From: Balneolaceae bacterium
GTDB lineage: Bacteria; Bacteroidota; Rhodothermia; Balneolales; Balneolaceae
Length of the DNA: 47,429 bases
Direction of reading: 5' to 3'
NCBI GenBank assembly: GCA_003559375.1
Contig: PWLN01000274.1
Coordinates: 1-47,429, forward strand
Shown here: piece after piece, positions 5,962 to 47,148 of the stretch
How positions within the stretch are numbered: the first letter of the stretch is position 1
How the letters are laid out: the number at the start of each line of letters is the position of its first letter
The notes under the pieces: generated by a model
What the model was told of the DNA's origin: nothing
Database searches by the model: none
Seen by the model: only the letters and a program-made list of their open reading frames with translations
Position numbers and translations under genes: made by a program

Positions 5962-6032
5962 CCCCACAGCGTACTACTACAATTTGGTTGTTCGCTTTTC
6001 TACAGGAATGAACTTAAGAACTAATATTTACT

Positions 6033-7532
6033 ATGTCGGAGAATCAAACCGATAACGATCTGAATATTGACCTGGATACGTTACATCAAAAGACTGTAAA
6101 CGATTTAAAAACCATTGCGAAGGCGATTGGAATAAAAGGAATATCCACGCTTAAAAAGCAGGATCTAATTAACCGGATAAAAGAAGGTTCAAAGCCTGAA
6201 AAGTCAGAAGAAAATGGATTGGCCCTTCAGGATGCTGAATATGGAAAGAAAGATCATATTCAAACTTATGATATGCCGGACTCAGATGATGGGGATGGAA
6301 AACGAAGGCATCGCCATCCACAAAAAAAACAGAATAAAAAACATGTTAGCAACGTGCTGCCAGAATCTGATGCAGCAACCCTTGATGAACGCCTTGCTGA
6401 TATAATACCCAAACTTGGAAAGTTTCTTATTAATGAAGGGACACTGGAAATTTTGCCTGACGGATACGGTTTTTTGCGTTCCGTAAATTACAATTATAAA
6501 GCCAGTCCCGATGATATTTACGTATCACCATCGCAAATAAAACGATTCAGGTTAAAACAGGGAGATTGTGTAATTGGAATTATACGGCCGCCAAAAGTTG
6601 GTGAGCGTTATTTTGCTCTTTTGAGGGTGGAAGGGGTTAATGGAAAAATTCCACGTGATATGGATAATCGCCAGGATTTTGAAGATTTGCTTCCGATTTA
6701 CCCTGAATCAAGATTTAAACTTGAGAATAGTTTTGCGGAGTACTCTACACGTATCATGGATCTTTTCACTCCAATTGGAAAGGGACAACGCGGGCTTATT
6801 GTTGCTCAGCCCAAGACAGGGAAAACTACCATTCTTAGAAATGTGGCAAATGCTGTAACCAAAAACCATCCGGAAACAAAAATCATCATCCTGCTGGTTG
6901 ATGAACGTCCCGAAGAAGTAACCGAAATGCAACGTACAGTCCCCAGAGCCGAGGTTGTTGCCTCTACTTTCGATGAGAAACCCGAGAACCACATCGGGCT
7001 GTCTGAAATTGTATTTGAAAAGGCAAAACGCCTGGTTGAAAGCGGCCATGATGTTTTATTGTTGATGGATTCAATTACACGATTGGCCAGGGCTTACAAC
7101 GTTGCAGGCGGGAGTTCAGGGCGAACGATGACCGGTGGTGTTGATTCTGAGGCGCTTAAAGCCCCGCGGCAGTTATTCAGTTCAGCAAGAAATATTGAAA
7201 ATGGAGGAAGCCTTACTATCATTGCAACTGCCCTGGTCGAAACCGGTTCGCGAATGGACGATGTGATATTTGAAGAATTTAAAGGCACTGGAAACATGGA
7301 GCTTGTACTGGACCGCAGATTAGCTGAAAGAAGAATTTTCCCGGCAATCGATGTATTCAAGAGCGGCACACGCCGGGAAGAGCTGATCGTTTCTGAAGAA
7401 GAAAGAGAGAAAGTAGTGCTACTAAGGCGTTACCTCAATAACCACAATGCCTATGAAGCCATGGAATTTCTTCTCGACAAAATGAAAGGAACACGGTCGA
7501 ATGAGGAATTTCTGATTTCGATGAATAAATAA
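6033..7532 (+). CDS. rho: Transcription termination factor Rho
   Basis: Hexameric RNA-dependent ATPase that terminates transcripts. The 499-aa protein has an N-terminal SAP-like Rho_N helix domain (residues about 15-51), then an acidic and lysine-rich linker (about 52-115), an extension common in Bacteroidota. A cold-shock RNA-binding domain follows ([13 protein letters not shown], 138-150), then the RecA-like motor. Walker A is QPKTGKTT with Lys264, and Walker B lies in [15 protein letters not shown]. The Q-loop region ([15 protein letters not shown]) and the R-loop region ([12 protein letters not shown]) are intact. It sits alone, 71 bases after folC, and converges on the DUF2784 gene. Confidence 0.98.
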
Positions 7533-7683
7533 TTGTTTTTGGGGTGAATGAAATAGGTTGAGATTTCATGGTGTTTTTCACACTTTTCTTCATTTAAGAT
7601 ATTTTCGTTTTTCCCAGATAATGATAAATATGGCTATTCCCAAATCCATCAGGTAACAGGAAATCTGAGGCCCCAACTCTTGA

Positions 7684-8049
7684 TCATTTTTTCACTGACC
7701 TGTATATGATGATTCCGTACAGAATCAGGTTGATGATAATAACCCCAATACCTAAGAAGATCTGAATCTCACGTGTTAACCCAGATGGGTAGATAACCGG
7801 AAGGAGATAGTGTTCAATGAAGCCGCCATCATATCCGCTCTGTCCGGCGGCGCGACGCAGTCGGTTTTCAAGTGGTGTTAACGGACAAATCCAGCCCTGA
7901 AACATGATCAGCGCACCCCAGAAAGCTGCAATCAAATGGATATATACCAAACGCCGCCATTTCAGCACCAATAATGCGCCGACTACCACAAATACAATAA
8001 ACAAAAAGTGAACGGCGATCACTACATCAGCCAGAATACTGTAAATCAT
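7684..8049 (-). CDS. DUF2784 family membrane protein
   Basis: Small integral membrane protein, 121 aa, with about four hydrophobic helices (residues 5-27, 34-53 and 93-116 are clearest). It carries the family block CPLTPLENRLRRAAGQSGYDGG followed by FIEHYL and the YP.GLTR segment, which matches DUF2784 closely. The function of that family is unknown. It is the last gene of a minus-strand run (sppA, MBL hydrolase, this gene) with only 27 bases before it, so it is probably cotranscribed. Confidence 0.85.
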   Translation of the reverse strand: MIYSILADVVIAVHFLFIVFVVVGALLVLKWRRLVYIHLIAAFWGALIMFQGWICPLTPLENRLRRAAGQSGYDGGFIEHYLLPVIYPSGLTREIQIFLGIGVIIINLILYGIIIYRSVKK

Positions 8050-8076
8050 GTTGAGTAAGTTGTGATTGGCTGATTA

Positions 8077-8922
8077 TCAAATCTCATTCAGAACAAATTG
8101 TTCTTTCTCATTCAGGGATAACTTTCCTGCTTTTCTATAAAGGGAATGATAAAAAAATAGTACCGCCTTTTCGTTATAAGCCCTGTTAAGAATCCGGGTT
8201 TTCATTTTTTTAGCACGAATGGGATCTGAATCCTCCACTGGGCTGGAGGATTGATTCAGTTGGTTTTCTGAGGGAATTAGATCCCCGGTATACCATGCAG
8301 TATTTCCATAGTCATGAATCCGGATTGCCAGGTGCCCGGGTGTATGACCACCGGTATGAATAAGCTCCAGGCCTCTTACAGGAAAATAGATTTCTCTGTC
8401 AATAAATCGAAATCTGTTATCTGCAGCGAGCTTATATAGTTCATCAATCTTGTACATTTCTCCATAAGAACCTGATTTTTGTTCAATTTGTGAAATTGCA
8501 AACTCCCACTCCAACCTGTGAACAATATAACGGGCATTAGGAAATGTAGGGTTTGTTTTGATCTCATCTGAAACAAATGTACAGCCAGCGGAGTGGTCAA
8601 AATGAAGATGTGTCAAAACAACAAAATCAATATCTTCGGGGCGAATACCAAATATGTCGAGATTGGTTTTAACATTCGAAGTATCCTTAAAACGGCTTTT
8701 AAAATCGAGTCCCCAGCCAAGGCCAGGATCTACGATGATATTCATCTCATAACCGGAAATAAACAGCGGGTCGATTCCCACAGCCTGCGTGCTTTTTAAT
8801 TGTTCTGCCTGATTCTGATCAGTATCAATGGCTGCGGGACTGGTTTTTTGTATTGTTCCATCTTTGAAAACCTCAAAAAAGCCCTCACTTAATTGTTCAA
8901 CGATGAAACTTCCGATTTGCAT
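8077..8922 (-). CDS. MBL-fold metallo-hydrolase
   Basis: Metallo-beta-lactamase superfamily hydrolase, 281 aa, cytoplasmic (no signal peptide). The binuclear metal site is visible: HLHFDH (His105, His107, Asp109, His110), GGHTPGH (His193), YTGD (Asp214) and a C-terminal His near residue 259 (FFYHSLYR). The arrangement is that of the lactonase/hydrolase branch, but the substrate cannot be identified. It starts 4 bases after the end of sppA on the same strand and ends 27 bases before the DUF2784 gene. Confidence 0.9.
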   Translation of the reverse strand: MQIGSFIVEQLSEGFFEVFKDGTIQKTSPAAIDTDQNQAEQLKSTQAVGIDPLFISGYEMNIIVDPGLGWGLDFKSRFKDTSNVKTNLDIFGIRPEDIDFVVLTHLHFDHSAGCTFVSDEIKTNPTFPNARYIVHRLEWEFAISQIEQKSGSYGEMYKIDELYKLAADNRFRFIDREIYFPVRGLELIHTGGHTPGHLAIRIHDYGNTAWYTGDLIPSENQLNQSSSPVEDSDPIRAKKMKTRILNRAYNEKAVLFFYHSLYRKAGKLSLNEKEQFVLNEI

Positions 8923-8926
8923 AAAC

Positions 8927-10714
8927 CTAATCGATTTGTATAGAAAATGGCATTAATTTCCATGCTGTAAGATCACGATGTGTAATCATTTGATTGACGG
9001 TATTTGCATCGTTACGTAAATTTTCGGGCAGCCAGCCAAACAGCATATTTCTCATTTTAGCCTCTGCGGAGCCAAAAAGCTGCTGAAAAAAATCTTCACG
9101 TTTGGGGAATACATCGATCTTATAGGCGTCAATCTCTGCCATTTCTGCGGCAATCTCAATGGCAGTATCAAGATCACCCAATATATCCACCAGTCCAAGT
9201 TCAAAGGCACGTGCACCAGTATATACCCGGCCCTGGGCAATTTCATGTGCTTCATCCCTTGTCATACCACGTGATTCGGCTACGACTTCGAGAAACCGCT
9301 CATAAAAGTTATCCATACGTTGATTTAGTATTTCGGTTTCTTGAGAAGTTAGTGGCCTTGAAAGATCAAAAAGATCGGAGAATTCATGGGTTTTAATAGT
9401 TTCAAATTTCAATCCAAGTTTATCCGATAATAATTCCTCAGCACTAAAGAACTGGAAAGCCACACCAATAGAACCGGTGATTGTGTTATTTTGAGCAACG
9501 ATGGTATCAGCGGCTGCGGCCATATAGTAGCCCGCTGAAGCTGCTACGGTACCCATGGATGCCACAAGAGGTTTTTTGTTGGCAGCGCGCCTCATATGGT
9601 TCCAAACAAGGTCGGAGGTGGTTGCAACACCGCCGGGACTGTTGATATGAACAACAATAGCTTTGATGTCATCATCTTCAAGAGCAGCATCAATCTGTTT
9701 TTTGAAATTCTCGGATGTAATGTTTCCGGTTTGGCCAAAAGGGGATTCAGCTATTTGAGGCAGAAACATTCCCGATGCATAAATAACCGCAATTTTGTTG
9801 GAAGTTGTAGTTTCAGTAATGCCTGCACGTCTGTTTGATACCCTGGAATATCGTCCATGTGATACTGTTCTGAATTGTGCATCATCACTGATTCCCATCC
9901 GGTTTTTGATAGCTTTTTCTACATCGTCCTGATATCCGAGTACATCAATTAGCCCTTTCTCATAGGCTTGCAGAGTTCTGTTGACAGGAGGTGTATTCAT
10001 AAACTCATTCACTTCAGCCTCAGTCATTCCGGTTCTTTCCATAACCGATTGTATAAAAGTAGTTGTGTAAGCTTCCAGAATCTCATCAATCTGCACACGG
10101 AGCTCATCAGATATTGTTTCTCTCATAAATGGATCGGCAACACCTTTATAATCACCTGCCTGAAATATATCAGGTTGAATGCCAATTTTGTCGAGCATTC
10201 CCTTATACATCGTTATCTGGGCAACAAAGCCTTCCATAAAAAACATGGTTTCGGGATTGTAAAATATCGAATCGGCTACACTTGCAAGCATGTATGCTTT
10301 TTCATTCATTCCAAGATCATCTGTACTGAAATAGAGAAATTTTCCGCTTTCCCTGTATTCCTGTAATGCATTGTATACCGATTCAAGATCAGCCCATGAT
10401 GCAGTGACCTGATTTGCAGTTACCCAGACTCCTGCGATATTATCATGAGATGCTGCTTTTTTCAGGTTGCTTTTTAAGGATTCTACAGAAACACGTGCAC
10501 CCAGGCGGGGATTTAACAACTCCTGCAATGGGTCAACTGCAGCTCTGGCAGGAATATCACCTGACAAATTTATTGTGAGCACCGTATTGGGCCGGATGTA
10601 AGGTTCCGGTTCGGATGAACTGCTCACCAACGCTGCCACAAGAATAACAATGAGCAGCATTATGCCGAGTATGGTTCCTAACAGTGAGGCAAAAAAGGTT
10701 TTTAAAAATTGCAT
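8927..10714 (-). CDS. sppA: Signal peptide peptidase SppA, 67K type
   Basis: Membrane-bound serine/lysine protease that degrades cleaved signal peptides in the cytoplasmic membrane. At 595 aa it is the long tandem-domain form. An N-terminal transmembrane anchor (about residues 8-30) is followed by two ClpP/crotonase-like repeats. The catalytic Lys is in GDYKG (Lys190, first domain) and the nucleophile Ser393 is in AASAGYY (second domain), the same split arrangement as E. coli SppA. HINSPGG forms the oxyanion region. First gene of a three-gene minus-strand operon, divergent from the oxidoreductase gene at 11129. Confidence 0.95.
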   Translation of the reverse strand: MQFLKTFFASLLGTILGIMLLIVILVAALVSSSSEPEPYIRPNTVLTINLSGDIPARAAVDPLQELLNPRLGARVSVESLKSNLKKAASHDNIAGVWVTANQVTASWADLESVYNALQEYRESGKFLYFSTDDLGMNEKAYMLASVADSIFYNPETMFFMEGFVAQITMYKGMLDKIGIQPDIFQAGDYKGVADPFMRETISDELRVQIDEILEAYTTTFIQSVMERTGMTEAEVNEFMNTPPVNRTLQAYEKGLIDVLGYQDDVEKAIKNRMGISDDAQFRTVSHGRYSRVSNRRAGITETTTSNKIAVIYASGMFLPQIAESPFGQTGNITSENFKKQIDAALEDDDIKAIVVHINSPGGVATTSDLVWNHMRRAANKKPLVASMGTVAASAGYYMAAAADTIVAQNNTITGSIGVAFQFFSAEELLSDKLGLKFETIKTHEFSDLFDLSRPLTSQETEILNQRMDNFYERFLEVVAESRGMTRDEAHEIAQGRVYTGARAFELGLVDILGDLDTAIEIAAEMAEIDAYKIDVFPKREDFFQQLFGSAEAKMRNMLFGWLPENLRNDANTVNQMITHRDLTAWKLMPFSIQID

Positions 10715-29982: not shown

Positions 29983-30975
29983 TTGCCAAAAACCATCTAT
30001 GATATTGCCAAAGCAGCTAATGTAAGTATTGCGACTGTTTCAAGGGTATTTAACAGTTCGAATACGGTAAAGGAAGCTACAAAAAAAAGAGTTCTCAGAA
30101 TTGCCGATGAGATGGGGTATCATCCTCAGGCTTATGCACAAAGACTTGCCAGCAGAAGAAAAAACAGTATTATGATGCTGGTACCAGTAATGTCGAACCA
30201 CTTTTTTACTGAAATCCTCAAAGGTACCCAGGATATTCTTGTTGATTTAAATATCGAACTAACCATCCAAAACATAAATCAGGAGCTGGGTGTTTTCAGG
30301 CAAGTTGAACAAATCCTGAAGCGGCAGTGGGCCGATGGCTATTTACTGGTATCGCTTCATCTAAGTGAACAGGAGTTAAAGAAACTGAAACGCTTTAATG
30401 TACCCCTCAGTTTGCTTGATGATGTTTCACCCACCTTTGATTCTGTGGGTTTCGATAATGTGGCCGGAGGTTACAAAGCAACTACATACCTGCTGGAAAA
30501 AGGATACAGAGATATCGCATTCCTATCCGGGAAGGTATCTTCAAAACCGGTTAAAGAGAGGCTTCAGGGATATAAAAAAGCACTGATGGAGCACCAGATT
30601 CCATTTTCTGATGAAAGGATTTTCCTTGGTGATACGATGGACAGAGACGGTTTTACAGAAAAAAGCGGCTATCAGGCCATGTTAAAAATTTTGTCAAACT
30701 ACCCTGTTCCGGATGCTGTATTTTGTTCATCAGATATTAAAGCCATTGGGGCCCTTAAAGCAATAAAAGACCTTAATGTCAAACTGCCAATGGTTAGTTA
30801 TGACAACCTTTCAATATCAGAATATACCGGGCTAAGCACGATTCACCAGCCTATGTATGAAATGGGATATCATGCAACCAAGCATTTGATTGAAAGGATT
30901 AATAATCCTGAGGCACCCATTTGTGATCACGTACACGACCCGGAACTGATCATCCGGAGTTCTTCTGAAATTTAA
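29983..30975 (+). CDS. LacI-family transcriptional regulator
   Basis: DNA-binding repressor or activator, 330 aa, starting at TTG (MPKTIYDIAK). The N-terminal helix-turn-helix (IYDIAKAANVSIATVSRVF, residues 5-23) and hinge are canonical. The rest is a periplasmic-binding-protein-like sensor domain for a sugar effector. It lies between the SusE/F-like lipoprotein and the secreted amylase, so it most likely controls both through the AAGCGCTT operators upstream. The effector is probably maltose or a derivative, by analogy with MalR-type regulators. Confidence 0.92.
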   Translation: MPKTIYDIAKAANVSIATVSRVFNSSNTVKEATKKRVLRIADEMGYHPQAYAQRLASRRKNSIMMLVPVMSNHFFTEILKGTQDILVDLNIELTIQNINQELGVFRQVEQILKRQWADGYLLVSLHLSEQELKKLKRFNVPLSLLDDVSPTFDSVGFDNVAGGYKATTYLLEKGYRDIAFLSGKVSSKPVKERLQGYKKALMEHQIPFSDERIFLGDTMDRDGFTEKSGYQAMLKILSNYPVPDAVFCSSDIKAIGALKAIKDLNVKLPMVSYDNLSISEYTGLSTIHQPMYEMGYHATKHLIERINNPEAPICDHVHDPELIIRSSSEI

Positions 30976-31043
30976 AATTTACAATGAAACTCTGACCAAT
31001 TCTGAACGTTTCTTAACGCAATTAATTTGCATATTCCATTTAC

Positions 31044-33947
31044 ATGAAATCAATTAAGGCTATTTTTCTCATATCAATAATTTTGCTTTTTCCTGCAGAT
31101 TTATTTTCTCAGGAAACTATTGATGTTACGTTCCGATACACCCCCAACGAAAACGCCATTCGCAGTTTCGTGCCCGGTTCATTCAATAACTGGGGAAACA
31201 ATAGTAATGGCAGAATTGATGTTAATGATGGTTCTTTATTGTCTGTTGATGAAGAATACGGTTTCAGCTATCAGGTAATTCCTCTTGTTGTAGGTGGAGG
31301 TTCATTGAGTCATGAAGGTGCTTCGGGTTACGGATATAAATTTCACGAACACTACAACCAAAGCGGAACAGAATGGCAGTGGTTTACCGATCCAATCAAC
31401 CCGATAGCGATCGGGGCTAACAACGATTCTTTCATCGAGGTAACACATCCACTCATTTTTCAGGTTGAACCTTCATCAGGCAGTGTTCAGCGTGATGCCC
31501 CTCCGGGGATTATTGCTGCGATAGCTGCTGTTTCAAGCGATCCAATTGATGTGACTGAATCACATATAATGCTGAACGGATCGATTGCCGGCACGTTTGA
31601 AGGGTTCTATGAAACAGAAAGACAATTGTTGATTATCCCGTCTATCCAGGAATTTGATGTTAGCCCAATGATTGGTGAAAACAGCCTCACGATAGTTGCT
31701 GTAACAAATGAGGGAGTAAGAAAAGAGTTGTCGGTTACATTTACCTATATTGCGACTCCCGATGTAACAGACGCTCCAAGGCCAACCGGTCTTGAAGACG
31801 GGATTACCTATTATGATGATGATCCTTCGAAAGTCAGCTTTTCAATTTTTGCACCACATAAAGAATTTGTGCATATCATTGGTGACCACAGCGACTGGCA
31901 GGTACGTGAAGAATACCTCATGAAGAGAGACGCGCCACGTGCCGACAGTGTACATTACTGGATTACCATTGACGATTTTACACCCGGCGAAACCTATCGT
32001 TTCCAATACCTGATTGATGGGGAAATCCGCGTTGCCGACCTCTTCTCGGAACTGGTGCTTCATCCCACACGAGATCAGCAGATATCCTCATCAGTATATC
32101 CTAACATGCCGCCATATCCGCATGGCCTTACAACGGAATATGTGAGTGTAATCGAACCTGGAACAGAGGCCTATCAATGGAGGGTGCCGGAGTTTGAACG
32201 CAGGCCTGTGGAAGAATTGATCATCTATGAACTGCTGCTGCGCGACTTCGTAGAGCATAGCACCTATGTAACCCTTCGGGATACACTCGATTATCTTGAA
32301 CGCCTGGGTATAAATGCCATAGAACTAATGCCAGTACAAGAATTTGACGGGAATCTTAGCTGGGGGTACAATCCGGTTTTTCACGGAGCTTTGGATAAAT
32401 CGTATGGTACCCGCAGGGCATTTAAGGAGTTTATTGACGAAGCTCACAGCCGGGGTATTGCTGTAATTCTGGATGTGGTGTATAACCATGCTCAAGATGA
32501 TTCCCCGCTAATTCGAACATTTGGAACAAACCGAACCGGAAGTTTTTCTACCGGCAACCCGCTGCTTGGTCCGGGTCATGCCTATAACGTGTTTTTTCAT
32601 TTAAATCATGATCATCCTTATATCAAATACTGGCTGGACCGTATGAACCGCTATTGGTTGGAAACCTATAATATTGACGGTTATCGTTTTGATCTTACAA
32701 AAGGTTTTGCATCCAATGTAAGCAACCGCTCTTTGCTGGATGGGAACAACCCGCAAAGAATCAGAAATCTTAAACGGATGTATGGTGCCATAAGAGAGTA
32801 TGACAAAGACGCCTATATTATACTGGAACATTTTGCTGCTAACAGTGAGGAACGTGAACTTGAGTTGCATGTCATGCTCCTCTGGGGTAATCATAACCAT
32901 AATTACTCAGAAGGGGTAATGGGGTGGAATCAGGGTGGGAACTCTGATATGTCTGGTATTTATTTCAGGAACCGGCAATTTCAGAACCCACATCTTGTGG
33001 GTTATATGTAGAGCCATGATGAACAATGGCTGATGCATAAAGCCCGCAATTTTGGAAACCAAAACAACCGTGATTTTCACGATGTGCGAGATCTCGATAC
33101 TGCACTGCAAAGAATGAAACTTGCCGGAGCATTCTTTTTTACCATTCCCGGGCCAAAAATGCTGTGGCAGTTCGGTGAGCTTGGTTATGGATGGAATGAC
33201 GGTGAATGTGTAAAACCTGGTGATGGCAGTGATGGTGATTGCAGACCTCAGGATCCAGGGCGTACTGCAGAAAAACCGGTTCGATGGGATTACTACGAGG
33301 ATGAGAACCGATTCCGGCTTTACCGTTCCTGGGGAGAACTGATTCGGTTGAGAAATACCAGCCCGGTATTTACGAGTAGTGAAACAGAATTCAGCTCATC
33401 ATTAAGAGGTGATACCAAATGGATACGGCTGGAGCATGATGATATGGATGTACTGATCGTGGGTAATTTTGGGGTGGATGTTCATGAGCTTAATGCAGTG
33501 TTACCTTATGCCGGTGAGTGGTATGAATTCATTACCGGAAAGTCTGAACAGTTCAATGAATCATCGGTTACATTCAGCCTGGCACCGGCTGAATTCAGAA
33601 TATATACATCTGACCCGGTGGAACCTGCTGAAGCGAATGTGTTCTTTAAGCCAGGTGAAGATGGCTTCACAGGCCTTCCCGAGCGTTTTGAACTGCGGCC
33701 AAACTATCCAAATCCATTCAATCCAAGTACAAACCTGACTTACGAAATTCCTGCTGAAGCCAGTGTGAGAATTAATGTTTACGATATTCTTGGCCGGCAG
33801 GTGGCAACACTCGTTAATGAAGACGCTCACCGCCCTGGCATTTTTACTATCACATTCGATGCAAATTCACTCAGCAGCGGTGTATATCTTGCCCGTCTTA
33901 TTAGCGGAAGTACCTCCATCATTCAAAAGATGACGTTTGTTAAATGA
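31044..33947 (+). pseudogene. Secreted GH13 alpha-amylase with T9SS sorting domain, interrupted by TAG
   Basis: Extracellular starch-degrading enzyme, 967 codons. It has a signal peptide (to about LFSQ, residue 23), beta domains including an E-set/CBM48-like module (about 260-370), and a GH13 barrel with Asp477-His482 (DVVYNH), nucleophile Asp550 (GYRFD), acid Glu595 (ILEHF) and Asp659 (SHD). A C-terminal type IX secretion sorting domain spans about 880-967 (PNYPNPFNPST; IYDILGR-like VYDILGRQ). The frame is open throughout except TAG at 33009-33011 (codon 656), giving GYM-stop-SHDEQ. The family pattern ESHDE predicts Glu (GAG). If the stop is real, the product loses Asp659, the beta-sandwich domain and the export signal, and would be inactive. 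Confidence 0.9.
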
Positions 33948-34354: not shown

Positions 34355-37135
34355 ATGAGCTACTCTGTGAAATTAAATACTGGCAGCACGGTTTCAGGCC
34401 ATTTTCGAAATTGGTTATTGTTCTTCTTATTCCTTCTTTTAATCTTTTCACCGGTAGTTTTAGCCCAAAACACCGGCACAATTAGCGGTGTGGTTACAGA
34501 TAATCATGGAAATGTATTGCCGAGTGCGGCAATATTACTTGCCGGTACCGAAACCGGTACATCAACAGATGCTGATGGAAATTTCTCATTCAATGTGTTA
34601 CCAGGCGAATATACACTTCAGGTAAGTTTTATAGGTTATCAGACTTACAGAAATGTAGTTCTGGTGGTAGGTGGTGATATACTGGATGTTCACATAGTAC
34701 TACGATCTGTAATTATTGGCGGAGATGAAGTGGTAATTCTTGGATCCCGCAGAGGGGATGGACGTTCTATCACACAATCTCCTGTTCCGGTTGATGTTAT
34801 AACTGCCCGGGAAATTCAGACAACAGGTTTAACACAAACAACGCAGATTATCCGGGCTCTTATTCCCTCGTTCAATTCACCGGAGTCGACTGTTACTGAT
34901 GGCAGCGACCATGTGCGGCCAGCTACACTCAGGGGGTTAGGCCCTGACCAGAGCCTTATTCTCATCAATGGTAAACGGCGCCATACGAGTTCTATCCTTC
35001 ATATTAATGCAACGGTTGGAAGGGGCTCAACAGGTGTTGACCTGAATGCCATACCTGCCAATATGATTGATCGGATAGAAGTGCTTCGTGATGGAGCGGC
35101 TGCACAATATGGCTCGGATGCCATTGCGGGTGTGATAAACATTGTTCTTAAAGAAAGTACCGGTTTTGATGCATCCTTTTCGTATGGCCAGTACGCGAGC
35201 TATCAGGAAAGGGGATATGCTCCGAATCAGGCGCTACCGGCAACCGGAGTTAATTCAGAAACAGCTGCCTTCCAAAGTTTACCCTTTTATCCCGGAGTGG
35301 AAAATGTATGGAGACTGGATGGAAAAACAATCAACCTGCACGCAGGTTATGGTTTTGAACTGCCTAATAATGGTAGACTGTATACAGCAGTTCAGTATCG
35401 GGATAAAGGCAGAACCAATCGCGCAGGCCTTGACCCAAGATTAAATTATCCTACACTGGAAGATGGCTCACCCGATCCGCGAGAATTTTCCTTTAACAGA
35501 GATAATCATCGTTACGGTTCCAGTGAACTGCTTGATGTGAGCGGTTTCTTTAACGGTTTTATGGAAGTTGCCGAAAATTTAAGTTTTTACGCTTTTGGCG
35601 GAGTAAGTTTAAGAAATGGTGTATCCGGAGGCTTTTATCGCCCGGCTCGTGATAACAGAAACCTGCCCGAATTTTACCCAGACGGGTTTCTGCCATTGAT
35701 AACTACTGATATTTATGATGGTTCGGTTGCAGTGGGATTTAATGGAATGTTGGGAATATGGAAATTTGATCTGAGTCAGGTTTATGGACACAATTCAATC
35801 GAATATGGAGTAACAAATTCACTAAACAGATCGATGGGTATAAGCAGCCCCACCACTTTCAGGGCGGGAACATTGGCTTTTGATCAGGCAACCACAAATT
35901 TCGATCTTGTACGTACTGCCAATATTGGAACAGCCCAGCCGCTAAGTATTGCTTTAGGTGCAGAATACCGTTACGAACTCTACAGGATAATTCGTGGTGA
36001 AGCAGCTTCCTATGCTGATGGTGGGATGGGAGGCGCACCGGGTTCGCAGGTTTTTCCGGGATATTCACCAAGAAATGAACAGAATGAAAACCGTTTCAGT
36101 ATTGCTGCTTATGCCGATCTTGAGACTGATATTGTTGAGCAGTGGACGGTAGGCCTCGCAGGGCGTTTCGAAAGTTATAGTGACTTTGGTAATACTTTAA
36201 CCGGAAAATTCAGTACACGGTTTGAAATTCTTAATGGGTTGGCTTTGAGAGGCGCAGCAAGTACCGGATTCAGGGCGCCTTCTCTGGCACAATCTTATTT
36301 CACTTCAATTGCAACTACATTCAGAGAAGGAATAGCCTATGAAGTAGGCACCTTTCCTGTTAACTCCCCACCGGCCATTGCACTGGGAGCTGAGCCCCTT
36401 GACGCTGAAACATCTGTAAATTTAAGTGCAGGAGTAACATTTGAAAGAGGTAATTTTTTACTCACTGCTGATCTATATACTATATCCATCAAGGATAGAA
36501 TTGTGATGACAGAAAATTTCCTTGGAGGGGGAATTCCTGCATTTCTAGAATCACAGGGAATTAATGCCACTGGTGGGAGGTATTTTACAAACGCTGTAAA
36601 TTCTCAAACAAAAGGAATCGATATTATTGCTCGATACGGACTGAACTTTTCAGCACAATCCACATTGGTATTTACTCTTGGTATGAATTTTAATCAGACT
36701 GAAATAACCAACACGGACGAAATTCAGACACCATCTGTACTTCGTGAATTCACAGAAACACCACTTTTTGGAAGGGTGGAAGTCGGGCGGTTTGAAGTGG
36801 GTCAGCCCAGAAGTACGATCAATTTTATGGCTGCATACACATTGAATAGCTGGAATGTACTAACAAGAATCACACAATTTGGTGAAATAGAAGCTTTGCG
36901 GAGAAACGAGGATAATGACCAGGTATTTGGGGCGAAGATTTTAACTGATTTCGAAATTTCTTACAATATCAGCGATCATGTTACCCTGGCTTTTGGCGGT
37001 AATAATATTTTTGATATTTATCCTGATAAAACTTTTCAAAGTGAAAGTAATAATGGAATATTTCAGTATTATTCGTTTTCACCATCAGGATTTGATGGAA
37101 GGTTTCTATATTCAAGGATTCGCGTGAACATATAA
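34355..37135 (+). CDS. TonB-dependent outer-membrane receptor
   Basis: Energy-driven outer-membrane importer, 926 aa. It has a signal peptide (cleavage near residue 38, VLAQ), a CarboxypepD_reg-like beta domain (about 42-120, GTISGVVTDNHGNVLPSA), a plug domain with RGLGPDQSLILINGKRRH and IEVLRDGAAAQYGSDAIAGVIN (about 140-265), and a long beta barrel. It lacks SusC-type length (about 1000 aa) and has no SusD partner, so it belongs with the ordinary siderophore/cofactor/peptide-type receptors. Its TAA stop directly abuts the ATG of the DAACS symporter (TAAATG), which suggests both import the same compound across successive membranes. Confidence 0.93.
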   Translation: MSYSVKLNTGSTVSGHFRNWLLFFLFLLLIFSPVVLAQNTGTISGVVTDNHGNVLPSAAILLAGTETGTSTDADGNFSFNVLPGEYTLQVSFIGYQTYRNVVLVVGGDILDVHIVLRSVIIGGDEVVILGSRRGDGRSITQSPVPVDVITAREIQTTGLTQTTQIIRALIPSFNSPESTVTDGSDHVRPATLRGLGPDQSLILINGKRRHTSSILHINATVGRGSTGVDLNAIPANMIDRIEVLRDGAAAQYGSDAIAGVINIVLKESTGFDASFSYGQYASYQERGYAPNQALPATGVNSETAAFQSLPFYPGVENVWRLDGKTINLHAGYGFELPNNGRLYTAVQYRDKGRTNRAGLDPRLNYPTLEDGSPDPREFSFNRDNHRYGSSELLDVSGFFNGFMEVAENLSFYAFGGVSLRNGVSGGFYRPARDNRNLPEFYPDGFLPLITTDIYDGSVAVGFNGMLGIWKFDLSQVYGHNSIEYGVTNSLNRSMGISSPTTFRAGTLAFDQATTNFDLVRTANIGTAQPLSIALGAEYRYELYRIIRGEAASYADGGMGGAPGSQVFPGYSPRNEQNENRFSIAAYADLETDIVEQWTVGLAGRFESYSDFGNTLTGKFSTRFEILNGLALRGAASTGFRAPSLAQSYFTSIATTFREGIAYEVGTFPVNSPPAIALGAEPLDAETSVNLSAGVTFERGNFLLTADLYTISIKDRIVMTENFLGGGIPAFLESQGINATGGRYFTNAVNSQTKGIDIIARYGLNFSAQSTLVFTLGMNFNQTEITNTDEIQTPSVLREFTETPLFGRVEVGRFEVGQPRSTINFMAAYTLNSWNVLTRITQFGEIEALRRNEDNDQVFGAKILTDFEISYNISDHVTLAFGGNNIFDIYPDKTFQSESNNGIFQYYSFSPSGFDGRFLYSRIRVNI

Positions 37136-38428
37136 ATGAACACAATCAAGCTCCCCAAAAATTATTTGCTGGTCGGTTCGCTTGGTGCAATGTTGGTTGG
37201 TCTTACAGCAGGTGTAGTTGCTCAACAAGGCGATTTCAAGTTTTTATTCTCCTTGTCATCATTTCTTGAACCCATTGGTGCCCTTTGGATTAATTCATTA
37301 AGGATGCTGGTTTTGCCGCTGCTCATATCCTACATTATAATGGCAGTAGCGTCGTTCTCTGAAGTAAAATCAACATTCCGTGTTGGTGGAGGTGCCATAT
37401 TTGCACACCTGATCTATCTTTGCATGGGGATTGCTGTTATGCTAATTATTGTACCTCCGCTGGTTGCACAATTCGAAATTACACCGGCAATCAGGGAAGC
37501 CCTTCAAAGCCAGAATATTCAAACACCAACGGTTTCAAGTGATGCAGATCCATCTGCTGGTTTAGGTGGAATTATCAGCCACATTATTCCGAGTAATATC
37601 TTCAGGGCTGCAGCAAATGAAGATATACTTCCAATTTTTGCAGCAACGCTTCTTTTTGCATTGGCATTATCACGCGTATCCGAAACCCATAGAAAACCTA
37701 TACTCGATCTTTTTAAGGCTGTCATCGAAACTCTTCATGTTTTGATCCGATGGATTTTGCTTGCGATGCCTTATGCAGTTTTTATTCTTGTATTTTCTAT
37801 GGCCACACGCGCAGGACTGGATTTATTCGCAGCTTTGGCTTATTTCGTGATATTGTTCTGTGGTTTACTGATTATACTCACACTATTTTTATACATTGTA
37901 ACACCAATTTTGGGTGGAGTTTCCATATCACGTTTTGCCCGGGCAGCTGCTCCTGCTCAGGTTATGGCTGTGGGCACAAGATCATCAATGGTGTGTCTGC
38001 CAGCACTGATTGAGGGTGCCCGCGACCGGCTTGGGCTTCCGCCAGGAGTGGTTGGAATTGTAATGCCTCTATCAGTTTCCATGTTTAAAATAAATAAAGC
38101 CGTATCCGGTCCCCTGCAAATATTCTTTCTTTCACATTTGTATGGCATCCCGCTTGAACCATTAGCTATTGCAGCTTTTTTTATGGCATATATTCCCACA
38201 AGTTTTAGTTCGCCCGGCATACCAAGCGGCGGTTTTTTTGTATCTCTACCACTCTATATTGCCTTGGGGTTACCGATTGAGGGTGTGGTACTATTACGTA
38301 CGGTAGATGCGATTCCTGATATTTTCAAAACACTTGCAAATGTAACTGAAGATATGAGTGTAGCCACACTCGTTTCACGTTTTTCACCGGAGTCTGCTAT
38401 TGCAGCAACTTCTTCCGTAGTTCAGTAG
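37136..38428 (+). CDS. SLC1/DAACS-type symporter with altered cation-site motif
   Basis: Inner-membrane dicarboxylate/amino-acid:cation symporter-family protein, 430 aa. Recognisable blocks are TRSSMVCLP (281-289, usually TSSSATLP), the re-entrant-loop PG rich segment, and DIFKTLANVTED (395-406) equivalent to DMGRTxxNVTGD. The family's NMDGT sodium-site motif is FKINK here (317-321), and the substrate-binding Arg of the last helix is Lys398. Substrate and coupling ion therefore probably differ from glutamate/Na+. It is translated directly after the TonB receptor with zero spacing. Confidence 0.88.
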   Translation: MNTIKLPKNYLLVGSLGAMLVGLTAGVVAQQGDFKFLFSLSSFLEPIGALWINSLRMLVLPLLISYIIMAVASFSEVKSTFRVGGGAIFAHLIYLCMGIAVMLIIVPPLVAQFEITPAIREALQSQNIQTPTVSSDADPSAGLGGIISHIIPSNIFRAAANEDILPIFAATLLFALALSRVSETHRKPILDLFKAVIETLHVLIRWILLAMPYAVFILVFSMATRAGLDLFAALAYFVILFCGLLIILTLFLYIVTPILGGVSISRFARAAAPAQVMAVGTRSSMVCLPALIEGARDRLGLPPGVVGIVMPLSVSMFKINKAVSGPLQIFFLSHLYGIPLEPLAIAAFFMAYIPTSFSSPGIPSGGFFVSLPLYIALGLPIEGVVLLRTVDAIPDIFKTLANVTEDMSVATLVSRFSPESAIAATSSVVQ

Positions 38429-38474: not shown

Positions 38475-39608
38475 ATGATCAATTTTATTGTTCCATGGGA
38501 CCAAAAGTGGATTTTTGAAAATTTGGTGAATCGTGTATCTGCCGAAAACTCATCAATTTTAAAGATTATCACATATCATGATCTTAGCAGGCAGGACAAA
38601 CTATTAGCCGGTATCTATATTTTAACAGGATATGGAGTACTTACCAAAATTCAGAAAGAGGCAGCTGTTCAGGTGAGCAACCTGCTTGAAAGCGGCGGTT
38701 CAGAATTTATGATTATGAACCACCCCGGCAGGGTATTGGAACGGTATATGCTGCTTAAAACACTTCATCAGCGAGGCATTAATCAATTCAGGGCATTCAG
38801 GATTAATGAAATCCAGGATAATAGTATAAAACTGCATTTTCCGGTTTTTATCAGAGAAGAAGGAAAGCATTCCGGAAGCCTGACCGGAATACTGAACAAT
38901 TCTGATGAATTAACTCAGGCTATAAACCAACTGAAAAATGACCGATATCGAATGAATGAACTTTTGGTTGTATAGTTTGTTGATACGTCAGGCGAGAATG
39001 GACTTTTCAGGAAATATTCAGCTTTCAGGGTAGGAGATGCCATAATCCCAAGATATTTAAGCCTGAGTTATCACTGGGTTGTAAAAGAACATGCTACCGA
39101 TCCGTCCGGATCAACCTTATACACTGATGAATTGATAGAGGAAGAGTTTTCTTACATACAAAACAACCCTCATCAGAAAGAACTCAGAGACATATTTGAT
39201 ATAGCTAATATTGAATATGGGCGTATTGATTATGGGTTTAACGATGGCAAACTGCAGGTGTGGGAAATTAATACACTGCCTGTAATTGGGCGCTATCCGG
39301 GTTTGCAAAATGAGGGTGAACAAATTTCAAAAAAAATTGCCGAAAGAAAGGAAAAACGAACTCCTGTAAAAGAACTATTTCATACTCTGATGGATGAAGC
39401 CATCAGTGATATGATTCCGGAGAAATCTGATTCATCTATTGCGCTCACTTTTACGAAAGAACTTCGCCGAGGTATACTCATAGAGAAATCAAAACACAGA
39501 TTAACAAATACGATATTGGAAAGCGGCAGCCGACTTCCAAAATTGAATTTTATTCAACCTCTCAGGTCAACGATTAAAAAGTGTTTAAGAAAATTGATTT
39601 ATTCATAG
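38475..39608 (+). pseudogene. ATP-grasp-like protein, interrupted by TAG
   Basis: A 377-codon frame with no specific family name I can give. The C-terminal part (YGRIDYGFNDGKLQVWEINTLP) is a typical ATP-grasp metal/ATP-binding end, and the middle (FPVFIREEGKHSGSLTG) resembles its lysine-containing ATP lid. The frame is open except TAG at 38973-38975 (codon 167), giving LLVV-stop-FVDTSG. A Glu (GAG) is expected there from the EFVDT/EFID pattern. The two pieces are 38475-38975 and 39132-39608, the latter counted from its first ATG. The intervening codons still encode family-like sequence (GLFRKYSAFRVGD). It follows the symporter by 46 bases and is the first of three successive broken genes. Confidence 0.72.
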
Positions 39609-41949: not shown

Positions 41950-43863
41950 TTAGTAACCCTGATTTTGTGTCAACTGAGGTACACCGCCCACAGTACTCAG
42001 GTCGATCTGACGCTGAGGAATAGGGAAGTATTCATTTTTGTTGGTTGAAAACCTTCCTTCGTTAAGGTATGAGGCTGGGAAGAACGCGCCTTCATAGTCC
42101 ATAAATCTGTTGATTTCGGTTTGTGCAATACCCCATCTGTTCAGATCGAAGAAACGGTGACCTTCAAGTGCCAGTTCAAGTTTGCGCTCGAAACGTACAA
42201 TTGCTCTTGCCTGTGCCTGGCTGCCCAGGTCGTTGTAGAGTGAAATCTCGTAATTAGGAACTGTATATTCGTTCCAGTTTGCAATATCTGTAGTGCCACC
42301 ACCCAGATAAACAAACGTGGTTCCGGTATCATTACGTACAACCCAGCTTCCTGATGTAATATCCAGTGCAAGCATTTCTGCCTGGCTGTCTACAACTGCA
42401 AAGGCAAATTCCTCATTGAACTCATTGCGAATCCACCCTGCCGGATCAGCAGCACGCGCACGCACACGATTGATATACTGCAATGCCTGTCCAAGGCTGC
42501 CTGCTTCAATTTCAGCCTCAGCGGCCATTAGCAATACATCTGCAAAGCGGATAATCGGGATGTTGTATGAAGTACCTGGTGCCCATTGGCTTGGATTGTT
42601 AACATCCTGGTCATCTTTTCTCCACCATATGTGCTTTTTGGCTGCATATGGTCCTGAATAAGCCTGGTCGCGTATCCATCGTTCGCCGGGGTGTGGACCC
42701 CAATCGTGAAACGGTACACCACGACGGCCTACGGTCCAGTCGAGACGCGGATCGAGCGTGCCTTCATGTGGTGTAAACTGAACATTTGACAAGATTCCAT
42801 TATCCCATCTCACACTGGTTGCCAAATGATTGTCAACCATCGGGAGGCCGTCAACAGTCTGATAAGCATTCACCAGGAACTGTGTAGGCTGGTAAAAACC
42901 GCAGCATCGGAACGGGCTGTTATACGGATAGTTCAACATCATTCCCGGGTTTGCATTCTGGATACCGCCGGTTCCGTCACTTGCTGATGCCTGAATCGCA
43001 AATACAGACTCTGCATGGTTTTTGTAAACCGGATTGTGTACCTGATCCAGGGTTACCAGATCGTATGGCAAGCCATTAGAGGTGCGACCGTTAGGTATGA
43101 TCTGATCATACAGGGTTTTAGCTTCTGAAAACTTCTGCTGGTACATATATGCCTTCGCAAGGTAGGATGCAGCTGCCCATTTATTTGGACGCCCAACCTG
43201 AGCCATGGTTTCCGGAAGGTTTTCGTATGCAAACCTGAAGTCTGCTTCGATCATCGGCCAGATTTCCTGGTCGTTTGGCTGCGGGGTAATGGCATCGGTA
43301 TTCTCATCGATCCATGGTACCCGGTTAAAGAACCTTCTCAGTTCAAAGTAGAAGTGGCCACGGATAAACCGGGCTTCTCCTTCGATCCGGGCTCTGTCGG
43401 CTTCTGAAAACACACCTTCGGCAAGAGGTACATTTGGTAATACACTTAATACCGAGTTGGCACGTGAAATACCTTCATACAGACCACGCCATTTCAGGTT
43501 AATGAAACCTGTTGTGGCTGATACATTCATGCCGCCAAGCGTGTTCATTTGTGGCTGGTCGCCAGCATCACTGCCTTTGTGTGCTTCCGTACCCAATACA
43601 CTGCCGTAGAGCCAGTTTGATGGACATACAATCCAGGCGCCGTCGCCGGGAAGCCCGTCGCCCCAACCCTGGTTACCGGTCTGGCTCAGAGCGCCATAAG
43701 CGCCAATCAGAAGAGCATTCACACCGGTACGGTCGGCAAGCACCTGCTCATCAAGAGAACCAAAGGCCGGGCGGGTGAGAAAGTCGTCCCCGCAGGCTTT
43801 GGTAAAGACGCCTGCCGTCATTAATAGTACAAGTATTAAAATAATATTTCTTGAGTTCTTCAT
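41950..43863 (-). CDS. SusD/RagB-family nutrient-binding lipoprotein
   Basis: Outer-membrane surface lipoprotein that caps a SusC channel and captures glycans. The 637-aa protein has a lipobox ending at Cys24 (TKAC), the N-terminal LTRPAFGSLDEQVLADRTG and LLIGAYGAL segments, the TPR-like helical core (WAAASYLAKAYMYQQKF), and the C-terminal RFERKLELALEGHRFFDLNRWG and FPIPQRQIDL hallmarks. It starts 15 bases after the end of the SusC gene, forming a classical pair. Substrate is not predictable, since no glycoside hydrolase gene adjoins it within the window. Confidence 0.97.
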   Translation of the reverse strand: MKNSRNIILILVLLMTAGVFTKACGDDFLTRPAFGSLDEQVLADRTGVNALLIGAYGALSQTGNQGWGDGLPGDGAWIVCPSNWLYGSVLGTEAHKGSDAGDQPQMNTLGGMNVSATTGFINLKWRGLYEGISRANSVLSVLPNVPLAEGVFSEADRARIEGEARFIRGHFYFELRRFFNRVPWIDENTDAITPQPNDQEIWPMIEADFRFAYENLPETMAQVGRPNKWAAASYLAKAYMYQQKFSEAKTLYDQIIPNGRTSNGLPYDLVTLDQVHNPVYKNHAESVFAIQASASDGTGGIQNANPGMMLNYPYNSPFRCCGFYQPTQFLVNAYQTVDGLPMVDNHLATSVRWDNGILSNVQFTPHEGTLDPRLDWTVGRRGVPFHDWGPHPGERWIRDQAYSGPYAAKKHIWWRKDDQDVNNPSQWAPGTSYNIPIIRFADVLLMAAEAEIEAGSLGQALQYINRVRARAADPAGWIRNEFNEEFAFAVVDSQAEMLALDITSGSWVVRNDTGTTFVYLGGGTTDIANWNEYTVPNYEISLYNDLGSQAQARAIVRFERKLELALEGHRFFDLNRWGIAQTEINRFMDYEGAFFPASYLNEGRFSTNKNEYFPIPQRQIDLSTVGGVPQLTQNQGY

Positions 43864-43878
43864 AGTAGACCTCTGTAA

Positions 43879-46800
43879 TTAAAATCCAAGGTTGATTCCG
43901 AACAGGAACTGCCTTGATGTTGGATAAGCTCCCTCATCCACACCAAAGCTCGTGGTGCTGGCATTGGCAGACTGGGTGTTGCCAATTTCAGGATCCGGGC
44001 CGGAATATCCGGTTATTGTAAACAGGTTCTGTGCCTGAACATATACTCTTAGCTGGTTCAGCCCAATACGCTGCAGCATGTCAACCGGCAGTGAATAACC
44101 AAGCTGCACAGTTCTCAATCTCAGGTATGAACCATCTTCCACATAGTAGGAGTTTGGTACAAGGTTTGTTGCTGTTGAACCTGCATTCTCCTGGATTGGC
44201 GCGGTTGCATTGGTTCTTTCCGGTGTCCATGAATCATAAAGAGCAGTTCTGCTCTTCGCTCCCTGGAATGACGGATAGAAATCTGTCCACCACTTCACTT
44301 GATTCCAGATATCATTGCCCTGTGAGCCGTAGAAGAATGCACTGAAATCGAAGCTCCTGTAATTCACATTAATATCCAAACCATATGTAAAGTCAGGATG
44401 CGGATCTCCAAGATTTGTACGGTCATCTGCAGTTACACGTCCGTCGCCGGTTATATCGGCATAACGGAAACGTCCCGGTGCAGCTTCTGACTGATATACA
44501 CCACCCGGTGCTGATGCATTGGCTGCATCAATTTCAGCCTGACTGTTCCAGAAACCTTCGATCTGATAACCGAAGAATGTAGAGATTGGCCAGCCTACCT
44601 GGTTACGGATAATCGGGTTTCCACCGCCAAATCGCCTTCCTGTACCGTCAAAGTTTTCAACACCTTCAGCAATTTTAATGATTTCGTTGTTATAGGTGGT
44701 GAAGTTAACAGTTGCACTCATGTTAAAGTCGTGGCTGAAGCTTCGTCGGCCGGTTACAGAAATGTCAAGCCCGGTATTTCGAACATTACCCACGTTAATG
44801 AATGGTTGTGCTGCAAGGCCTGCCTGTCCGGGAAGTTCCGGGTTGTAAAGCAGGTCGCGAACGTCATTTCTGTAATAATCCATATCAATTTCGATTGCGG
44901 CATCAAACAACATGGCATTGAAACCGATATTCATGCTATGGGCTTCTTCCCAGCGGGCATACGGGTTTCCAATTCTGCTTTGGAAGAATCCTTCAAAGAT
45001 GCTTGGGCCACCGGTAATCGGATAGTATGATGACAGCCTGTTCGCTGCAAATAATGAAAATGCGTTTTCCGGAGCAACGTTAAGCTGATTACCCATTACA
45101 CCATAGCCTGCACGAACCTGTAAGTTGGCGAGCCAGTCAACATCCTGCATGAAAGATTCCTGGGAGATACGCCAGCCAATACTTGCTGAAGGGAAAGTAC
45201 CCCAGCGGTTTTCCATGAACCTGGATGAACCGTCACGCCTCAGGGTTGCATTGAACAGGTAACGGTTGTCAAAATTATATTCGACTCGACCAAAATATGA
45301 GAAGAGTGCGTTTTCATATTTCCAGCTGTAGTTTGTTGGTGTGCCTGCACCTGTGCTAAGGTTTACATAGTTAGGATTAAATGAGAAATAGTCGGTACGT
45401 GTGCCGCCTCTTTCCCTGCCTGAGCTTTCAAATGCTTCTGTACCCACAACAATGTTAACGTTATGAACACCGGCTAAAAGATTGGTGTAGGACAGAGTAT
45501 TTGTCCAGGTCCAATCAGCGCCGTTCCATGCACCATCACCATACAGGTTGATAACTGCATTTTCAGCTCTTTCATATTCCGGGAACTGGAACCAGCTCCA
45601 GTTGCTTGTTCCGTAGCTTCCACCGAAGTTGGTTCGGAAAGTAACGGTTTCATGAAGGTCAAGCTCAGCAAAAACATTACCAAAAATACGGTTGTTTTCA
45701 CCGGTGTTGTTCATGGTACGTTCACGCTGTGCAACCGGGTTGGCTGAGTTTCCAAGTGGTGCGCCAAAGTTGCCCGCAAAGTTGCCTGCAATATCATAAA
45801 CCGGGATAATTGGCTGCTGCCGGTAAACCATACCGGTTGCGGATCCTTCTTGAAGTGATCCTGTCTGTGGGTTGTACCATAGTGCTAAAGAAGCATTCTG
45901 GCCAATACGGATATTATCTGTAAGGTTGAATTGCGTATTAACACGAAGAGCATAACGCTCATTGTACGTTCTCAACAGGGTGCCTTCCTGGTTCACATAG
46001 TTCAATGATAGCATATAGGTCGCATCATCTGTACCACCGCTCACTGAAAGGTTGCTGTTTGTGGTCCATGCCGGCTGGAAGATTTCCTGGAACCAGTTGG
46101 TGCCTTGTTGGTTTGCAGGGGTAATTCTGTAGAAACTTGCAAGGTCTGCCGTACTGGTATAGAACGGATTCACATAGTAATCATCATGATTCACCTGGCC
46201 GATCATTGCGCCTGCCGGAGCTATATAATCGGGTAGCCTTGGTGATGCACCACTTCCGTATAACGGGGAAGAAGGTGTAAGGCCAGAGTTCCTGAATGCA
46301 AGCCATTCCAGCTCCGCATGCTCCATAGGAGAAGCAATGTTGTACGGGTTTCCGTGATGGCGGGGTGTTTCATAACCCACATAAGAGTCGAACTGTACGG
46401 ATAAGCCCGGGCGGCCACGTTTGGTGGTGATAATCACAACACCATTAGAGGCACGTGCACCGTAGATGGATGCAGCAGATGCATCTTTCAGCACCTGAAG
46501 CGATTCTACGTCGCGAGGGTTCAGGTCACGAATACTTCCGGTAGGTACGCCGTCAACTATATATAAAGGACTTACGTTACCGAAGTTAGCAACACCACGG
46601 ATTCGAACGGAGGGTTCGTCGCCTGGCTGACCTGACTGAGTCACCGTAACACCGGAAACCTGTCCCTGTAATTGTCTTGTAACGGTTGATTCCGCTATTC
46701 TTTGCATTTGCGGAACATTCGCAACACTGATTGAACCTGTGAGGTCAATTCTTCTTTGTGCTGAATATCCTGTTACTACCAGGTCTTCACCAAGAATCGC

Positions 46801-47148
46801 GGATGCCTGCATGATTACGTCAAGCGTTGAACGGCCGTCAACTGCGATGGTTTGGGTAGTATATCCTATATATGAAAAGCGTAGCTGAACATCAGGGCCT
46901 GGAAGAACAAGTGAATATCGTCCATTCAGGTCGGTAGTGGTACCCATTGTGGTTCCCACAATCAGGATATTTACACCAATGAGGGTTTCACCGGTAAACT
47001 CGTCTGTAACGGTCCCGGATACTTCAAAATCCTGCCCGTAAGCAACACTGCTTACGGATAATAGAAGTAACATACACATCCCTGCTGTCGTGAAATAGCG
47101 AAGAGGCGCCCTCCAGGATAAAAGCGTATTGTATAATAATTTTATCAT
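43879..47148 (-). CDS. SusC/RagA-family TonB-linked outer-membrane transporter
   Basis: Outer-membrane oligosaccharide or peptide importer, 1089 aa, the typical SusC length. It has a signal peptide (cleavage near residue 38, VAYGQ), a CarboxypepD_reg-like domain (FEVSGTVTDEFTGETLIGVNI), a plug with the SusC signatures VRIRGVANFGNVSPLYIVDGVP (family block, about residues 178-199) and DVESLQVLKDASAASIYGARASNGVV, a large barrel, and a C-terminal aromatic end (FLFGINLGF). It is upstream of and paired with the SusD gene. The upstream 281 bases contain no AAGCGCTT operator, so it is probably not under the same LacI control as the starch locus. Confidence 0.97.
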   Translation of the reverse strand: MIKLLYNTLLSWRAPLRYFTTAGMCMLLLLSVSSVAYGQDFEVSGTVTDEFTGETLIGVNILIVGTTMGTTTDLNGRYSLVLPGPDVQLRFSYIGYTTQTIAVDGRSTLDVIMQASAILGEDLVVTGYSAQRRIDLTGSISVANVPQMQRIAESTVTRQLQGQVSGVTVTQSGQPGDEPSVRIRGVANFGNVSPLYIVDGVPTGSIRDLNPRDVESLQVLKDASAASIYGARASNGVVIITTKRGRPGLSVQFDSYVGYETPRHHGNPYNIASPMEHAELEWLAFRNSGLTPSSPLYGSGASPRLPDYIAPAGAMIGQVNHDDYYVNPFYTSTADLASFYRITPANQQGTNWFQEIFQPAWTTNSNLSVSGGTDDATYMLSLNYVNQEGTLLRTYNERYALRVNTQFNLTDNIRIGQNASLALWYNPQTGSLQEGSATGMVYRQQPIIPVYDIAGNFAGNFGAPLGNSANPVAQRERTMNNTGENNRIFGNVFAELDLHETVTFRTNFGGSYGTSNWSWFQFPEYERAENAVINLYGDGAWNGADWTWTNTLSYTNLLAGVHNVNIVVGTEAFESSGRERGGTRTDYFSFNPNYVNLSTGAGTPTNYSWKYENALFSYFGRVEYNFDNRYLFNATLRRDGSSRFMENRWGTFPSASIGWRISQESFMQDVDWLANLQVRAGYGVMGNQLNVAPENAFSLFAANRLSSYYPITGGPSIFEGFFQSRIGNPYARWEEAHSMNIGFNAMLFDAAIEIDMDYYRNDVRDLLYNPELPGQAGLAAQPFINVGNVRNTGLDISVTGRRSFSHDFNMSATVNFTTYNNEIIKIAEGVENFDGTGRRFGGGNPIIRNQVGWPISTFFGYQIEGFWNSQAEIDAANASAPGGVYQSEAAPGRFRYADITGDGRVTADDRTNLGDPHPDFTYGLDINVNYRSFDFSAFFYGSQGNDIWNQVKWWTDFYPSFQGAKSRTALYDSWTPERTNATAPIQENAGSTATNLVPNSYYVEDGSYLRLRTVQLGYSLPVDMLQRIGLNQLRVYVQAQNLFTITGYSGPDPEIGNTQSANASTTSFGVDEGAYPTSRQFLFGINLGF

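Follow-up and report, generated by a model that had tools for sequence, protein, structure and literature searches.

SDF-fold transporters with lysine or arginine in place of the sodium motif and their conserved linkage to a predicted ATP-grasp ligase

In the Na+-coupled aspartate transporters of the SLC1 fold, the loop carrying the residues NMD organises the sodium sites Na1 to Na3 (PMC12668577, PMC5110648), and its Met311 touches both the substrate and the Na2 ion, keeps the two apart and contributes to cooperativity (PMC8431971). Reddy et al. (2025) reported that an ancestor of the SDF family can be uncoupled from Na+ and that uncoupled relatives tend to adjoin amino-acid enzymes, and they proposed that enzymatic use of the substrate maintains the inward gradient (PMC12668577). 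How SLC1-fold carriers lose ion coupling, and whether adjoining enzymes drive uncoupled carriers, are open questions arising from that work. Here we analyse a transporter gene of this fold on a 47,429-nucleotide stretch of DNA from a Balneolaceae bacterium (GCA_003559375.1, contig PWLN01000274.1; the whole stretch is called the window below), and show that it belongs to a clade in which the sodium motif is replaced and whose conserved genomic partner is a downstream gene for a predicted ATP-grasp-type ligase. The clade is an extreme natural case of the question, with an invariant positive charge standing in for the sodium motif and a candidate enzyme in the same operon.

Both profile and fold place the window transporter in the SDF/SLC1 superfamily. 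Its match to Pfam SDF (PF00375) scores 225 bits against a cut-off of 27.9 and covers 382 of the 387 profile positions, and its AlphaFold2 (AF2) model (pLDDT 83.7), which has the HP1/HP2 architecture, is matched by Foldseek to GltTk (E 2.1e-14, TM-score 0.80) and to inward-facing forms of GltPh and GltTk at TM-scores of 0.75-0.84. In a MAFFT alignment to GltPh, whose sequence agrees with the PDB alignment, N310-M311-D312-G313-T314 correspond to F317-K318-I319-N320-K321 and R397 corresponds to K398, and the equivalents of D390, D394, T398, N401 and D405 are kept, among them the substrate ligands D394, T398 and N401. An earlier note on this DNA had described FKINK in place of NMDGT and Lys in place of Arg397, with Asp394, Asn401 and Asp405 retained, and the alignment and the model both bear this out: if the register of FKINK is right, transmembrane helix 7 (TM7) is expected to break at residues 317-320, and the AF2 model shows the break there. 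Together with 22 relatives, these results rule out FKINK as an artefact of a shifted alignment. The losses also go beyond what that note described and reach TM3, since the Na3-site residues Y89, T92, S93, N310 and D312 are H, Y, L, F and I in the window transporter. The protein fits neither the tested signature of the Na+-coupled nor that of the H+-coupled SDF subgroup. Compared with that of its closest relative, the window gene shows a dN/dS of about 0.07, the synonymous sites being close to saturation; this points to strong purifying selection and rules out a pseudogene. A second SDF gene of the same host (L001) is ordinary and has NMDGT, and in the canonical SDF proteins sampled from the phylum the motif is NMDGT or close to it.

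The loss of the sodium motif is the mark of a whole clade and not of a single odd gene, of chance or of a local error. A scan of 84,980 species genomes that used four members as queries and took no account of neighbouring genes returned 19 loci; the scan loci and G356 (L074) gave 22 alignable sequences, the window's included, with the Eisenbacteria locus (L043) left out because it matched in two frames. These sequences come from Balneolota, Bacteroidota, Gemmatimonadota, Acidobacteriota and Planctomycetota. NMDGT is absent from all 22, every one has Phe-[Lys/Arg] at positions 310-311, and none has the T92/S93 pair; position 397 is Lys in 21 and Arg in one, and D405 is kept in the Balneolaceae and a few others and lost elsewhere. 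A maximum-likelihood tree was built from 62 proteins, none of them an Ext-Int sequence. In it, a branch supported at 100/100 separates the 22 variants from the other 40 proteins, which include GltPh, E. coli GltP, DctA, SstT, TcyP and canonical Bacteroidota proteins. When the tree is midpoint-rooted, the Gemmatimonadaceae variants (L041, L042) branch earliest. In Cytophagales-type genomes, the ligase is preceded by a tandem of two divergent variant transporters, or one transporter-ligase pair follows another (L044, 7923-11420; L045; L048, 2680-6238; L049, 7938-12842), and mixed assemblies could form in either arrangement.

The conserved partner of the variant transporter is the ATP-grasp-type ligase gene downstream of it, not the TonB-dependent receptor gene that precedes it in the window. 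A ligase-type protein of ~360 aa is encoded directly 3' of the transporter in 14 of the 19 scanned loci (that of L046, a distant match at E 6e-5, is counted as probable), and most paired loci have a 4-bp overlap between the transporter stop and the ligase start. Reverse profile searches found the ligase in 6 of 395 Bacteroidota-wide genomes, five of the six beside a variant transporter, and in 4 of 249 Gemmatimonadota genomes, two of the four beside one; a search of the order Cytophagales added just one weak partial match (L099/L107), which had no SDF neighbour. Over 12 pairs, the pairwise distances among transporters and among ligases are correlated (Mantel r 0.86, reached by 0 of 9999 permutations), a correlation to which shared species history contributes. 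The window's own ligase gene is co-directional and starts 46 bp 3' of the transporter, and the ligase profile matches it at 38475-39599 with one TAG (E 9.6e-112). Because of this single in-frame TAG the gene looked like two short open reading frames and was missed in the earlier note. Among the papers searched, none describes an operon joining an SDF transporter to an ATP-grasp protein.

Structure prediction suggests that the partner is an ATP-grasp ligase resembling RimK and LysX. Searches against Pfam and NCBIfam gave nothing significant and a PDB sequence search gave nothing useful. The analysis defines an ATP-grasp-like family that has no entry in Pfam or NCBIfam and has unusual Lys-to-Arg changes. 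Modelled with AF2 (pLDDT 88.4), the Rhodohalobacter orthologue L005 is matched by Foldseek to Ddl (E 2.2e-10), ArgX, RimK and an L-amino-acid ligase, and by VIA-align to RimK (Z 17.1) and LysX (Z 16.4). All 12 paired ligases have the same metal-site residues, D254, E266 and N268. Ligase activity of the partner is likely but not assured.

The genes of the receptor and the transporter abut exactly as had been described, and it had been suggested that the pair defines an import system. That the two constitute a dedicated system spanning both membranes appears quite improbable to us. The abutting genes are both intact, in the window and in L034/G336, where the transporter of L034 is 81% identical to the window's and the receptor/transporter junction is a TAATG overlap; L034 and G336:C300 are apparently one contig, judged by coordinates. 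However, the receptor stands upstream of a variant transporter only there, and its orthologues in four other Balneolaceae, at 67-70% identity in G266, G235 and G211 and at 54% in G403, have no SDF neighbour. Nor did the neighbourhood survey find the receptor beside the remaining variant transporter loci or G356, which rules out the receptor-transporter linkage as a defining feature. The earlier note had named the lack of a conserved linkage to the receptor as something that would refute its reading; the homologues indeed show no such linkage, and the receptor-transporter pair is not supported as the defining system.

We propose, with somewhat less than even confidence, that the clade comprises sodium-independent elevator carriers of the SLC1/DAACS fold, in which Lys/Arg311 acts as a tethered cation and transport is coupled to a substrate-consuming ligase. 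The idea of a tethered cation comes from the invariant Lys/Arg at 311 combined with the loss of the Na3 side chains. With those side chains gone, and with the Na1 site presumably weakened by the Phe that replaces N310 everywhere and by the loss of D405 in several lineages, the tethered charge would take the structural role of a bound Na+, and a high-affinity site would form without ions. The argument for uncoupling thus draws on the losses of N310, D312, T92 and S93 combined with the new charge, not on residue 311 alone. A Lys likewise occupies the Na2-equivalent site of the sodium-independent LeuT-fold transporters BasC and ApcT (PMC6472337). Transport would then be by facilitated diffusion or exchange, or might be linked to protons should the Lys titrate. 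The pull for net uptake would come from the cytoplasmic ATP-grasp ligase translated together with the carrier, which may use ATP to attach the small carboxylate or amine that enters, probably an amino acid, to an acceptor. In the window lineage, the TonB receptor placed before this unit would probably bring that substrate through the outer membrane. An operon of a carrier and an ATP-dependent ligase fits the proposal of Reddy et al. The operon is also present in a cultured species, Rhodohalobacter sulfatireducens WB101 (L037), where the pair is intact (transporter 8001-9305, ligase 9309-10325), and the ideas of a tethered cation and of an enzyme drive are directly testable.

A wider evolutionary account, which we put forward more hesitantly, is that the clade swapped sodium for the tethered Lys/Arg and that the driving force moved from an ion gradient to the co-translated ATP-dependent ligase (metabolic trapping). 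The ATP-grasp family would be the engine of this uptake unit, and in other phyla a PP-loop enzyme or a dehydrogenase would have taken the place of the ligase. A protein with the PP-loop motif SGGVDS is encoded directly upstream of the transporter in the Acidobacteriota locus L038 (two tandem copies; 4172-9239) and in the Eisenbacteria locus L043 (6904-9259); it gave no significant Pfam match and no useful PDB sequence match, and a search for its family in Acidobacteriota found one further genome (G1038, L112), with no SDF gene alongside. In the Gemmatimonadaceae loci L041 and L042 (8001-10153), a D-2-hydroxyacid dehydrogenase gene takes the place of the ligase gene 3' of the transporter.

Several points weigh against the proposal of a sodium-independent carrier drawn by its ligase. 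The GltTk mutants M311C and M311S keep 3:1 Na+ coupling, so that residue 311 alone is not decisive (PMC8431971). D405 is kept in the window and in other members, and one cation site, for Na+ or H+, could survive; the Na2 site is mostly main-chain, and on sequence grounds it may persist. The locus is also compatible with export of the ligase product. On the side of the enzyme, 3 of the 10 ligase-family genes from the profile searches have no SDF neighbour, namely L104, positioned after a DNA-ligase-D-like gene, L106, which overlaps an ABC transporter gene, and L073, within a glycosyltransferase cluster; and the window's own ligase gene carries an in-frame stop codon. An hhalign comparison of the partner profile with E. 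coli RimK was not significant, P125-R129, E169 and E-I-N nevertheless falling on the expected motifs. Strand 2 of the ATP-grasp superfamily has a conserved Lys (PMC4431377). In the ligase family this position appears to be Arg, R129, which is present in all members and aligns to K141 of RimK in that same non-significant comparison, and an invariant R94 probably replaces the linker Lys, so that catalysis is not assured.

D405 also bears on the possibility that the transporter, with this residue and a Lys311 that titrates, is still coupled to H+ or to a single cation, and that it works as an ordinary concentrative amino-acid importer with the ligase as a mere metabolic neighbour. The window transporter has both D405 and D394, some SDF relatives (GltP, DctA) are H+-coupled, and a Lys at Na2-like positions can be proton-linked. 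However, D405 is absent from several lineages that have the same Lys/Arg311, and the known signature of H+ coupling, namely T92 changed to A/L/I/V/M/F, M311L, D405N and a putative S279E (PMC12668577), is not that of the window transporter, which has Y, K, D and M at T92, M311, D405 and S279. We therefore regard this possibility as rather unlikely. The suggestion of a different coupling ion in the earlier note is well founded to the extent that Na+ coupling is probably altered or absent, given the clade-wide loss of the motif. Its further suggestion of a non-dicarboxylate substrate is possible, but D394 and N401 are kept and Lys397 is still a cation, which would also be compatible with an acidic or other carboxylate substrate.

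The direction of transport might also be the reverse, the transporter working outward or as an exchanger that releases the ligase product, such as a dipeptide or amino-acid conjugate, with the receptor of the window unrelated or retrieving that product. Uncoupled elevator carriers are reversible and AncInt behaves as an exchanger (PMC12668577), a biosynthetic ligase beside a transporter is a common layout, and among the orphan ligases L106 and L073 have the settings given above. Yet a bulky product would fit the conserved amino-acid ligands D394 and N401 less well than a free amino acid does, and most loci have no surrounding biosynthetic cluster, and we consider this arrangement improbable. 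In L073 (6458-8206), the ligase adjoins a small protein whose TGGWDST motif resembles a PP-loop, and the cluster hints at a role in surface-polymer modification. It seems very improbable that the clade has given up nutrient transport and now serves, as a sensor or a kind of scaffold, to regulate the ligase or to localise it. All coupling residues are lost and the translational overlap with the enzyme is tight, but D394, T398, N401 and the HP1/HP2 architecture are conserved, as would be expected of a protein that still handles a substrate.

The features of the locus are collected in the table below. In the window, the transporter locus is flanked by a LacI-type regulator and amylase genes (29983-33947) and by a SusC/SusD-like pair (41950-47148), and thus lies within what looks like a region for alpha-glucan utilisation; an amylase gene is also found upstream in L034. 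Three window genes are each split by one in-frame stop, namely a folC-like gene (TGA, 5512-5514), an alpha-amylase-like gene (TAG, 33009-33011) and the ATP-grasp gene. L034 reads Glu at the site of the amylase stop and homologues read Glu at that of the ATP-grasp stop; at the folC-like site we take Gly to be expected. All three are explicable as G-to-T changes, and they suggest DNA damage or an assembly error rather than decay. Recoding of TAG or TGA is disfavoured, since both also terminate genes here and both Glu and Gly would be implied.

Table. Positions of the receptor, transporter and ligase genes and of their relevant sites in the window
Feature	Position	Strand	Basis or remark
TonB-dependent receptor (TBDT)	34355..37135	+	Open reading frame; Pfam Plug + TonB_dep_Rec + CarboxypepD_reg; lineage-specific upstream neighbour
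Abutting receptor TAA and transporter ATG	37133..37138	+	TAA 37133-37135, ATG at 37136
SDF/DAACS-fold transporter of the variant clade lacking Na+-site residues, 430 aa	37136..38428	+	Pfam, tree, AF2, Foldseek
H91, Y94 and L95 in TM3, replacing the Na3-site side chains Y89, T92 and S93	37406..37420	+	Alignment; ligands from PMC5110648, PMC12668577
FKINK (F317-K321) replacing NMDGT; K318 at the Met311 position	38084..38098	+	Alignment, AF2 model
TM8 ligand block D391-D395-K398-T399-N402-D406 (GltPh D390, D394, R397 changed to K, T398, N401, D405)	38306..38353	+	Alignment
ATP-grasp-type ligase gene, conserved downstream partner, one in-frame TAG	38475..39608	+	Profile match; fold predicted from orthologue L005
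In-frame TAG at the Glu site of all homologues (E169, L005 numbering)	38973..38975	+	Homologue comparison

Set beside the known systems, the variant clade shares with GltPh and GltTk the fold, HP1/HP2, the broken TM7 and D390, D394, T398 and N401. In contrast to them, it has neither NMDGT nor the Na3 side chains, has Lys/Arg at 311 and Lys at 397, and carries SFxxPGxP in HP2 where they have SIGTAGVP. The H+-coupled GltP and DctA belong to the same superfamily and their Na+ residues are likewise changed, but they have NLDG and D405N, whereas the window transporter has FKINK and keeps D405. BasC and ApcT offer an analogy only, in that a Lys may be seen as replacing Na+ at a former Na2 position within an unrelated fold. 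The partner has the same predicted fold and the same D/E/N metal-site pattern as the carboxylate-amine ligases RimK, LysX, ArgX and Ddl; it differs from them in matching no Pfam or NCBIfam family, in having Arg for the strand-2 Lys and probably for the linker Lys, and in that its gene is paired with a transporter. The Na+-uncoupled AncInt and Ext-Int proteins of Reddy et al. (PMC12668577) likewise have poorly conserved Na+-site residues and genes beside amino-acid enzymes, and the AncInt structure 9bgz is the best PDB sequence match of the window transporter. The described Ext-Int clade is from Firmicutes. AncInt keeps NMD and R397 and is uncoupled by allosteric changes, whereas in the variant clade the motif itself is replaced by Phe-[Lys/Arg].

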